Below are positions 11,545 to 33,869 of a DNA stretch of 38,949 nt, piece after piece. Below the pieces are notes generated by a model. That model saw only the letters and a list, made by a program, of their open reading frames with translations. It did not search any database and had not been told where the DNA came from. The position numbers and the translations under genes are program-made. Within the stretch, counting starts at the first letter, position 1. Each line of letters opens with the position of its first letter. The DNA lies in NCBI GenBank assembly GCA_025355995.1, contig JANXYQ010000018.1:1-38949 (forward strand), read 5' to 3'. The stretch is from Spirochaetaceae bacterium. Its GTDB lineage: Bacteria; Spirochaetota; Spirochaetia; Treponematales; Rectinemataceae.

Positions 11545-11578
11545 GGTCCCTCCTACTTCTACATCGCTGTAGGTCTCG

Positions 11579-31417: not shown

Positions 31418-31433
31418 ACGGCGAGGAAGCTAG

Positions 31434-31468
31434 CAGCACCGCCCCAGAATGGGCGGTGCTGATTTCCT
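31434..31468 (+). terminator. terminator of the sod gene
   Basis: CAGCACCGCCC and GGGCGGTGCTG form a perfect 11-bp stem with a 6-base loop, 17 bases after the stop codon. The following run (ATTTCCTT) has few T, so it may terminate imperfectly. Confidence 0.75.
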
Positions 31469-31592
31469 TCGCTAATGTATCTGCCTTATCAACGGCATAC
31501 GCAAATGTCGTCAATCCCTACATATTGGTCTCTACACGGCTAGGGTGCAAAAAAGGCAGTTTCAACAATCCAACATAAATGTGGAATTCATT

Positions 31593-31643
31593 TAATGCTA
31601 TTTTATTTAACTGTATAATGTTACAAGCAACAACTTAGCATTA
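31593..31643. promoter_or_regulatory. TATAAT box framed by an 8-bp inverted repeat
   Basis: TAATGCTA (31593-31600) and TAGCATTA (31636-31643) are perfect inverted copies. Between them is TGTATAATGTTACA (31612-31625), a dyad that contains a perfect -10 hexamer without a good -35 box. It may be a second promoter or a regulator site for amtB. Confidence 0.35.
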
Positions 31644-31682
31644 TGTAGAAATCGTACTGATTTTTCCTACTCCCATGAAGGT

Positions 31683-31698
31683 CGGCATGAGGTTTGCA
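31683..31698 (+). promoter_or_regulatory. sigma-54 promoter of amtB-glnK
   Basis: CGGCAT-N5-TTGCA matches the -24/-12 consensus TGGCAC-N5-TTGCA at 9 of 11 defined positions, with the invariant GG and GC exactly 10 bases apart. Transcription would start near 31709, about 27 bases before the ATG. Nitrogen-controlled amtB-glnK operons commonly use sigma-54, which supports the call. Confidence 0.75.
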
Positions 31699-31735
31699 AT
31701 AGTAACAGCTGACTGCCTGGGAAGAAGGAGAATCA

Positions 31736-33010
31736 ATGATCGCTACGCCTGTGCTGAGCGGGGGAAACACCGCCTGGGTGTTGATGGCAACCGCCCTCGT
31801 CATGTTCATGACGGTTCCCGCCCTCGGATTGTTCTACGGCGGGCTCGTGCGCAAGAAAAACGTCCTCAGCGTGCTTATGCAGTGCTTCATCACGCTAGCC
31901 CTGGTCTCCGTCCTCTGGGTTTCGTTCGGCTACAGCCTCGCCTTCAGCGACGGGGAGCTCATCCCCGGGGTGCTCGGCGACTTCAAGTGGGCCTTCCTCA
32001 ACGGGATAACCCCGGACCAGCTCTCGCCCTATTACGTGTCCGACGCGACGGGCCGAGTGCCCCACCTGACCTTCGTGATGTTCCAGTGCATGTTCGCCGT
32101 CATCACGCCGGCCCTGATAATCGGCGCCTTCGCCGAACGGATGAAGTTCTCCTCCTTCCTGATCTTCACCGCCCTGTGGGAGGTGCTGATCTACAGTCCC
32201 CTGGCCCACATGGTCTGGTCGTCGAACGGCTGGCTGTTCAAGCTCGGCGTGCTCGACTTCGCGGGAGGCACCGTCGTCCACGTCAACGCGGGTTTCGCGG
32301 CGCTCGCCGCGGCCCTCGTCATCGGCAGGCGCAACAACCTGAAGGCCCTGCCCCCCCACAACCTCCCGTATACGCTCATTGGCGCGGCGATGCTCTGGTT
32401 CGGCTGGTTCGGCTTCAACGCCGGCTCGGCCCTCGCGGCGGACGGGATCGCCGCCAGCGCCTTCATGGCGACGACCGTCGCCGCCGCCGCCGCCGGCCTG
32501 ATGTGGCCCATCCTCGACAGGATCGTCAACAAGCGGCCGACCATCCTCGGCGCGGCGACGGGAGCCGTGGTGGGGCTCGTGGCGATCACCCCAGCGGCGG
32601 GCTATGTCGGAGTGGGCGGCGCGCTGGCCATAGGCGCGATAGCCAGCGCCGTATGCTTCGTGATGGTCACCGTGGTGAAGGAGAAATTCGGCTACGACGA
32701 CGCGCTCGACGCATTCGGCTGCCACGGCATCGGAGGCCTCGTCGGCGCCCTGCTCACGGGCGTATTCGCCGACCCAGCCCTGTGGAAATCCTACGGGGCC
32801 TCGCCGGCCGGGGCGCTCCACGGCAACCCCCGGCAGTTCCTGCTCCAACTCCTCGCCTCGGGCGTGAGCATCGCGATCGCCTTCGGCGGGACCCTGGCCC
32901 TCCTGAAGATACTCGAGGGGACGATAGGCCTGCGCGTCGACGCCAAGGACGAGGCGATCGGCCTGGACATTTCCCAGCACCACGAGCGCGCCTACACGGT
33001 GCTCGAGTGA
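31736..33010 (+). CDS. amtB: ammonium transporter Amt/MEP family
   Basis: This is a 424-residue ammonium channel with eleven predicted membrane helices. Family motifs include FYGGLVRKKNVLSVLMQ, FAGGTVVHVNAGFAALAAAL with the first pore His, MLWFGWFGFNAGSAL, and FGCHGIGGLVGALLTG with the second pore His. There is no cleavable signal peptide. The ATG has AAGGAG upstream. glnK follows 10 bases after the stop. P-II proteins of the GlnK group plug the channel when nitrogen is plentiful, so the pair forms one functional unit. The sigma-54 element upstream suggests expression under nitrogen limitation. Confidence 0.97.
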   Translation: MIATPVLSGGNTAWVLMATALVMFMTVPALGLFYGGLVRKKNVLSVLMQCFITLALVSVLWVSFGYSLAFSDGELIPGVLGDFKWAFLNGITPDQLSPYYVSDATGRVPHLTFVMFQCMFAVITPALIIGAFAERMKFSSFLIFTALWEVLIYSPLAHMVWSSNGWLFKLGVLDFAGGTVVHVNAGFAALAAALVIGRRNNLKALPPHNLPYTLIGAAMLWFGWFGFNAGSALAADGIAASAFMATTVAAAAAGLMWPILDRIVNKRPTILGAATGAVVGLVAITPAAGYVGVGGALAIGAIASAVCFVMVTVVKEKFGYDDALDAFGCHGIGGLVGALLTGVFADPALWKSYGASPAGALHGNPRQFLLQLLASGVSIAIAFGGTLALLKILEGTIGLRVDAKDEAIGLDISQHHERAYTVLE

Positions 33011-33020
33011 GAGGCGCGGC

Positions 33021-33362
33021 ATGAAAATGGTGATCGCGATAATCCAGCCCTATAGGCTCGAGGAAGTGAAGCAGGCCCTCTACGCGGCGGAGGTCAACCT
33101 GATGACGGTCTCGGAGGTCCTCGGCCACGGCCGCCAGGGGGGCCAGCACGAGATCTACCGCGGCAACAAGGAGACGGGGAACCTCCTGCGGAAGATCCGG
33201 CTGGAGATAGCCGTGAACGAGGCCTTCGTCGAGCCCACGATCCAGGCCATCCTCGCCGGCGCGCGCACCGGCGAGCTCGGCGACGGGAAGATCTTCGTCT
33301 ACGACCTCGCCGAGACGGTGCGGATCAGGACGGGCGAGCGGGGCCCGGAGGCGATCGGGTAA
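33021..33362 (+). CDS. glnK: P-II nitrogen regulatory protein, GlnK-like, without Tyr51
   Basis: This is a 113-residue P-II protein. The start MKMVIAIIQPYRLEEVKQAL, the T-loop region GRQGGQHEIYRG and the C-terminal GDGKIFVYDLAETVRIRTGERG are characteristic. Tyr46 of the loop is kept, but the position of the uridylylated Tyr51 in E. coli GlnB/GlnK is Glu (sequence RGNKETGN). So GlnD-type uridylylation at that site is not possible. Control may rest on ATP/ADP and 2-oxoglutarate binding, or on another modification. It probably gates the ammonium channel encoded just upstream. GAGAGG precedes the ATG. Confidence 0.95.
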   Translation: MKMVIAIIQPYRLEEVKQALYAAEVNLMTVSEVLGHGRQGGQHEIYRGNKETGNLLRKIRLEIAVNEAFVEPTIQAILAGARTGELGDGKIFVYDLAETVRIRTGERGPEAIG

Positions 33363-33372
33363 GCCCCCTGCC

Positions 33373-33401
33373 TTGACGTCCCGACCGGCTTCTCCTATCC
33401 T
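33373..33401 (+). promoter_or_regulatory. sigma-70-type promoter of the cyclic-nucleotide-binding gene
   Basis: TTGACG, 17 bases, TATCCT: 5 of 6 and 4 of 6 consensus bases. It lies between glnK and the next gene and gives a short leader containing the ribosome site. Confidence 0.5.
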
Positions 33402-33419: not shown

Positions 33420-33869
33420 ATGGACAAGGAGCAGGCCCTCGCGAAGGTGGGGCTTTTCGAGGGACTCAACCCTAAATTCCTGAAGGGGCTGGCGAGCATC
33501 GCCACCGAGAGGTCCTTCAAGGCCGGCGAATACCTGATGCGGCAGGGCGAGAGCGGGATCGGACTTTTCATCCTCCTCTCCGGCAAGGTGCGGGTCGAGA
33601 AGGCGGACGCGTCCGGCCGGAGCGTGGAGCTGGCCGAGAACGGGCCCGGTGATATCCTCGGCGAGATGGCCGTGTTCGACGGCTCGCCAAGGTCCGCGAG
33701 CGTGGCCGCCTCCGAGGAGACGGCATGCCTCGTCCTCGCATCCTGGGAATTCAACGCCTTCCTCAAAGCCCATCCCGAGGCCGCCCTCGAGCTCCTGCCG
33801 ATAGTGGTCAAGAGATTCCGCGAGACCAACGACGCGCTGATCAACCTCGGCGCGATGAGGAACTGCTAG
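33420..33869 (+). CDS. stand-alone cyclic-nucleotide-binding domain protein
   Basis: This is a 149-residue protein made of a single CNB (CRP-like) domain. It has the beta-roll start FKAGEYLMRQGESGIGLFIL, the phosphate-binding cassette region LGEMAVFDGSPRSASVAA with the key Glu and Arg, and a C-terminal helix. There is no helix-turn-helix, kinase or membrane segment, so it cannot act as a DNA-binding CRP. It must work through a partner or as a nucleotide buffer. AAGGAG precedes the ATG. It has its own likely promoter although it follows glnK by 57 bases. It is convergent with truA, separated by 6 bases. The ligand (cAMP, cGMP or none) is not known. Confidence 0.9.
   Translation: MDKEQALAKVGLFEGLNPKFLKGLASIATERSFKAGEYLMRQGESGIGLFILLSGKVRVEKADASGRSVELAENGPGDILGEMAVFDGSPRSASVAASEETACLVLASWEFNAFLKAHPEAALELLPIVVKRFRETNDALINLGAMRNC

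Follow-up and report, generated by a model that had tools for sequence, protein, structure and literature searches.

Several described systems share parts with the locus analysed here, an amtB-glnK operon on a 38,949-nucleotide stretch (contig 41, called the window, in all its length) of a Spirochaetaceae draft genome of 4.5 Mb that is 95% complete. In the GlnD-GlnK-NtrBC system of E. coli, amtB and glnK lie in one sigma-54 operon with paired enhancers upstream. The window likewise has a sigma-54-type amtB/glnK operon with paired, putative upstream elements, but it differs in gene order (amtB-glnK), in the glutamate at residue 51 of its P-II protein and in a genome with no GlnD or NtrC over cut-off. 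The T-loop of archaeal and Firmicutes GlnK differs from that of the window. For those proteins, a review reports no covalent modification (PMC4285133), a feature that the window's GlnK would share, here behind a sigma-54 promoter instead.

Receiver-less activators provide a second set of comparisons. The AnfA/NifA class has the domain order GAF-AAA+-HTH, which recurs in eight of the 14 relatives' activators that we scanned; the activator discussed below differs in that it adjoins glnN or amtB rather than nitrogenase genes, and in that no GAF domain was detected in the copy from the window genome. PMC7294313 gives the AnfA site of alpha-proteobacteria as TAC-N6-GTA, in two copies, and the NifA site as TGT-N10-ACA; PMC8743547 gives the NtrC element as TGCACCAnnnTGGTGCA. 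The element found here, a doublet of TACA-N4-TGTA palindromes, has the same TAC-N6-GTA dyad as the AnfA site and differs from these NifA and NtrC sites. In Leptospira, according to a review (PMC12655853), amtB is controlled by EbpA, also a receiver-less sigma-54 activator in a spirochaete. EbpA differs in having two putative GAF domains and in being called FhlA-like there, but it offers a precedent from within the spirochaetes.

Taken as a whole, the material is best explained by a NifA/AnfA-like activator that acts through the doublet on a sigma-54 regulon of amtB-glnK and glnN, with a Glu51 GlnK that goes untagged; we regard this explanation as reasonably probable.

The amtB-glnK operon and its promoter

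The features of the operon and its upstream region are collected in Table 1. By P-II protein, the closest named loci are Spirochaetaceae assemblies (L072, 89% identity), among matches that may omit records of the source genome itself. The window's GlnK passed the P-II domain test (best PDB match, E 1.6e-31), and its coupling to amtB is present, with 10 bp between the amtB stop and the glnK start. Directly 3' of glnK, at 33420-33869, lies a gene for a lone cyclic-nucleotide-binding domain protein with no DNA-binding domain match; the promoter scan reported a sigma-70-like site at this gene (33373-33401). The same genome holds a second amtB-P-II pair (L001, 1435-1821), whose amtB reaches the contig end and whose P-II has Tyr51 and Trp46 in the T-loop WRGTAYQMDM.

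Table 1. Features of the amtB-glnK operon and its upstream region (window coordinates)
Feature	Coordinates	Strand	Description	Basis
Terminator-like hairpin	31434..31461	+	11-pair stem; between superoxide dismutase gene and amtB promoter region	
Putative enhancer, half 1	31468..31479	+	TTCGCTAATGTA; 2/8 mismatches to TACA-N4-TGTA; weak	
Putative enhancer, half 2	31498..31509	+	TACGCAAATGTC; 2/8 mismatches; exactly 30 bp after half 1; weak	
Further single palindrome	31572..31583	+	AACATAAATGTG; 110 bp upstream of sigma-54 site	
TATAAT	31614..31619	+	possible sigma-70 element	exact match
Predicted sigma-54 promoter	31682..31698	+	TCGGCATGAGGTTTGCA; GG-N10-GC	motif score, shuffles, recurrence in relatives
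amtB	31736..33010	+	ammonium channel, 424 aa	TIGR00836, 448.9 bits
glnK	33021..33362	+	P-II protein, 113 aa, T-loop YRGNKETGNLLRK	PF00543, 92.9 bits (cut-off 25)
Codon 51 of glnK	33171..33173	+	GAG, Glu; replaces the GlnD-modified tyrosine	sequence read and alignments

The first-pass annotation had described a GG-N10-GC promoter in front of a sigma-54-type operon, and both readings are borne out. The predicted promoter keeps the GG (31684-31685), the GC (31696-31697) and the flanking consensus, and transcription would be expected to start near 31709. When the stretch 31418-31735 was shuffled 2000 times with dinucleotides preserved, 18 shuffles reached or exceeded the sigma-54 score on either strand. 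Across the genome, the 2-mismatch sigma-54 pattern is not enriched (96 matches versus 181 for the reversed control), so the motif by itself is weak proof, the genome-wide count was dropped as evidence and the main weight falls on recurrence 5' of amtB in relatives. There, sites of at least 19 out of 22 precede amtB in all five spirochaete Glu51-type loci in which amtB was found (L072-L075 and L084; amtB was not identified in L076, L079 and L085). The rpoN gene, which the annotation had proposed looking for along with ntrC and glnD, is present, and the sigma-54 activator domain has 21 matches in the genome, 14 of them strong. Near-perfect sigma-54 sites, with 0-1 mismatch, also occur elsewhere in the genome (L026, L027, L028 and L029).

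Main transcription could alternatively come from a sigma-70 promoter at the TATAAT, with the sigma-54 match a chance or secondary one. The hexamer is exact, a perfect copy precedes amtB in the congener L072 as well, about 17 bp farther from the gene, and genome-wide the control is at least as frequent as the sigma-54 pattern, but the amtB genes of relatives are repeatedly preceded by sigma-54 sites and the promoter scan reported no sigma-70 site at the TATAAT, which leaves this alternative distinctly improbable. Lacking a sigma-70 partner in the scan, and out of register with five relatives in what is a poor alignment, the TATAAT was set aside as a promoter. Given the counterpart in the congener, an additional sigma-70 start, from a second promoter in front of amtB, is possible.

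The Glu51 T-loop, GlnD and NtrC

The replacement of Tyr51 by glutamate, also noted in the first-pass annotation, stands, and comparison of T-loops reveals a recurrent type. Among 115 P-II frames, a set that includes duplicate loci and the window itself, Glu51 occurs in 50, Glu51 together with Gly53 in 48, and Tyr51 in eight. One of these eight belongs to the family member G001, where it is linked to amtB and accompanied by a sigma-54 site. The best-scoring 25 new P-II loci of the order include none with Tyr51 and one of the window type (L279). Hosts of the Glu51 type are named, as deposited, as Spirochaetes, Omnitrophota, Planctomycetota, Lentisphaerae, Elusimicrobia and others. A sigma-54 site is absent in the Glu51-type loci L077, L078, L080, L082 and L087 (labelled Marinamargulisbacteria/Omnitrophota) and present in others, L110 and L113; T-loop type and sigma-54 control are therefore separate traits. 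When 129 distinct P-II sequences were placed in a tree with the T-loop left out, those with Glu51/Gly53 fell into clades of 22 and 21 (support 0.97) and one single sequence, and a single origin of the type is thus unsupported.

All 48 Glu51/Gly53 frames share Tyr46, Arg47, Leu56 and Lys58, and each has a basic residue, Lys or Arg, at position 50. Positions 49 and 52 show no such constraint, and Tyr46 is the sole invariant hydroxyl residue within 46-58, which makes another modification at the loop tip, once suggested for this protein, unlikely. All 44 distinct Glu51/Gly53 sequences have Gln39, Arg47, Lys58, Lys90, Arg101 and Arg103, and Gln at residue 9, which we take to be ligand or channel residues of P-II. 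Glu51, being negatively charged, might also serve as a permanent mimic of modified P-II and lock the protein towards the nitrogen-starved form. Fixation of Glu51 with Gly53 in the two well supported clades is in keeping with such a mimic, whereas the retained amtB coupling and Arg47 are as expected if the protein still plugs the channel, and residue 51 is V, I, M or F in other relatives. We consider the mimic improbable; it is compatible with the other readings.

GlnD (TIGR01693) exceeded its cut-off in none of the 48 genomes searched, comprising the window's, 37 that hold a Glu51-bearing locus and 10 others. The best match in the window genome reached 20.3 bits versus a cut-off of 519.4, and its two weak matches (20 bits), an HD protein and a tRNA nucleotidyltransferase, span only model positions 371-558. 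Sub-cut-off matches occurred in 29 of the 48 genomes; the five that we scanned by Pfam were rejected as GlnD, four being tRNA nucleotidyltransferases and one an HD protein. The control search detected GlnD in five known genomes, over cut-off in only two, so a divergent GlnD could fall below the cut-off. The earlier statement that GlnD cannot uridylylate residue 51 holds, and with no GlnD over cut-off and Tyr51 often missing, the absent tyrosine is no paradox.

NtrC fared similarly. Of the genome's 14 strong activators, 13 were scanned with the NtrC model (TIGR01818, cut-off 558.6 bits) and none reached it, the best scoring 446.5 bits; the fourteenth, L015, was scanned by Pfam only, and the score of L010, truncated by a contig end, is a lower bound. 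With no match over cut-off in those 13, NtrC was rejected as an identified regulator, and the first reading of the locus as an NtrC-type operon with a broken P-II gives way to one in which the best candidate is a receiver-less, NifA/AnfA-like activator. Eleven of the 14 strong activators have receiver domains, and one of these eleven may act like NtrC. L007 is another receiver-less activator, with a GAF domain; one of the thirteen other activators could control amtB. The classical GlnD-P-II-NtrBC cascade, running through the genome's second, Tyr51-bearing P-II, would draw on that protein and on the eleven activators with receiver domains, but it has against it that neither GlnD in a 95% complete assembly nor NtrC in 13 of the 14 activators exceeded its cut-off. 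This cascade was already disfavoured, and we hold it to be very improbable.

A receiver-less activator beside glnN and a paired palindrome

In the explanation that we prefer, a receiver-less NifA/AnfA-like activator is the likely controller of amtB-glnK, judging from gene neighbourhood and shared sequence elements. Its gene (contig 133, L164) lies directly upstream of glnN, which encodes glutamine synthetase III, with the site TTGGCACAAAGATTGCT between the two. The best PDB sequence is a Nif-specific regulatory protein, its nearest solved relative, yet the best curated model, NifA (TIGR01817), scores 437.1 bits, under the cut-off of 528.85. Pfam GAF was over cut-off in the activators L207, L208, L247, L249, L253, L254, L260 and L236, below cut-off in L258, and not detected in L164 (window genome), L209, L211, L229 and L232.

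The activator model, A1, was built from the last 75 residues of the window genome's activator. At E <= 1e-13, an activator was found in 62 of 146 genomes of the order, drawn evenly and at least 85% complete. Within the family, 17 of the 18 genomes searched (the exception is G015) have glnN as the activator's next neighbour, read in the same direction, and a sigma-54 site of at least 18.5 separates the two genes in 16 of those 17, with G014 the seventeenth; automated glnN placement was off in L221, L230 and L239, and the sites for L221 and L239 were taken from L186 and L169. Among 20 further loci of the order, one of them same-family, 17 have amtB (11) or glnN (6) directly downstream of the activator.

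Upstream regions also contain a recurrent palindrome. The word TACAT was first spotted by eye in 21 regions. A search of the same regions (4415 bases) with all 5-bp palindromic half-sites at gaps of 0-8, amounting to 9216 motifs with 30 shuffles, ranked TACAT-N2-ATGTA first, in 10 of 21 regions versus a shuffle maximum of 5 for any motif. Its copies then proved to be paired. Of 46 regions with a sigma-54 site, which include the discovery regions, 15 hold a doublet with at most two mismatches spaced by 30 bp; spacings of 29 and 31 bp occur in 5 and 4, compared with 0.16 for each other spacing. Where a strong sigma-54 site was lacking, the 30-bp doublet turned up in four of 39 regions. Outside the discovery set, the 30-bp doublet is present in 13 of 17 loci, or in 14 if spacings of 29-31 bp are allowed, compared with 0.27 for each other spacing (L250, L252 and L255, in which amtB or glnN was not found, were left out). 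Doublet and activator also occur together: across 46 genomes (G036 and G068, without activator data, left out), 25 have both, one has the doublet only (G057), eight the activator only and 12 neither. Fisher tests that ignore relatedness gave p values from 3e-5 at best to 0.002 at worst over four threshold pairs. This neighbourhood and co-occurrence suggest that the activator may bind the TACA-N4-TGTA doublet.

At the window itself the doublet is degenerate, with 4/16 mismatches and a shuffle fraction of 0.057, and as an enhancer it is suggestive only; the doublet at glnN of the same genome has five mismatches. With four and five mismatches, the genome is counted among the eight with an activator and no clear doublet. 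Scanned at up to one mismatch, the genome has TACAT-N2-ATGTA in 16 places per strand versus 5 for the reversed control. None of these lies at amtB-glnK; the window's contig carries one, at 11560.

P-II and the proposed circuit

Whether the activator needs P-II bears directly on how nitrogen status could be sensed. In 15 of the 62 activator-bearing genomes, with completeness of 87-99%, no P-II match was found, and G117, which is absent from a complete list of positives, appears to be a sixteenth. We looked at nine family genomes without P-II, namely eight of the 15 plus G010 (79% complete). Each has the activator and glnN side by side, and in eight a sigma-54 site of 20-22 separates them; automated placement of glnN went wrong in the remaining one. 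P-II is therefore no obligate link, and the activator as a rule does not depend on it. If P-II were instead an obligate nitrogen sensor, binding the N-terminal domain of the activator by ligand state alone as proposed for NifA/AnfA, these 15 genomes (16 if G117 is included) and the conserved activator-glnN pairs of the nine would be hard to accommodate. Such a role draws on the proposal, in PMC12093980, that P-II binds the AnfA GAF domain, and on order-mates such as G106, in which amtB occupies the interval of about 1.7 kb between the activator and P-II; we rate it unlikely, if still worth weighing. The first-pass suggestion that ligand binding alone conveys nitrogen status thus survives in part: it fits the gating of AmtB, but P-II is not needed as a general link to the activator.

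The circuit that we propose, with a self-sufficient activator, starts from elements read in the DNA, namely the sigma-54 site, rpoN, no GlnD over cut-off and a receiver-less activator gene beside glnN (amtB or glnN in relatives), and adds binding, ligand and direction of response, which we infer. The amtB-glnK operon and glnN would form a small sigma-54 ammonium-assimilation regulon. Nitrogen shortage would switch the activator on, sensed through its N-terminal (GAF-derived) domain rather than by NtrB phosphorylation, and the activator would then bind the two palindromes 30 bp apart and open the sigma-54 promoters of amtB-glnK and glnN. The Glu51 GlnK, untagged, would read ATP, ADP and 2-oxoglutarate directly and, on the return of ammonium, would plug AmtB with Arg47 according to its nucleotide/2-oxoglutarate state. 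P-II, where present, may also touch the activator, a contact not required across the group. In E. coli, according to PMC4274968, GlnK binds and leaves AmtB irrespective of uridylylation, and GlnK Tyr51Ala still cycles on AmtB.

The original puzzle dissolves, and interest shifts to the system around it. What looked like a broken GlnD target gives way to a testable circuit, the doublet provides an enhancer signature for seeking regulon members, and the P-II-less genomes are a place to test direct sensing by the activator. Our results suggest that activators of the NifA/AnfA class, known for nitrogenase, run the basic assimilation of ammonium in a number of phyla that have received little study. 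Somewhat short of an even chance, in our estimate, is the wider proposal of an apparently undescribed, NtrBC-independent sigma-54 system for ammonium assimilation across spirochaetes, planctomycetes, Omnitrophota and Lentisphaerae, in which a self-sensing, receiver-less activator of this class would act through a 30-bp TACA-N4-TGTA doublet and P-II, often without Tyr51 and sometimes absent, would only gate the channel. We found no description of an activator-doublet regulon in the literature searched, a body in which most subscription journals fell outside coverage.

P-II genes also occur in other arrangements. In G015 (L215), about 0.5 kb separates a P-II gene (C3:25305-25622) from glnN (from 26083), and both are on one strand. 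The congener G025 has two extra tandem P-II genes (L070 and L071), which we take to be NifI-like from the shape of their T-loops, presumably a hint of nitrogen fixation in G025. Finally, in many order-mates P-II is contained in long single open frames of about 570-620 aa (L266, L268-L275, L278, L280, L286 and L288-L290), which suggests that these are putative Amt-P-II fusions.
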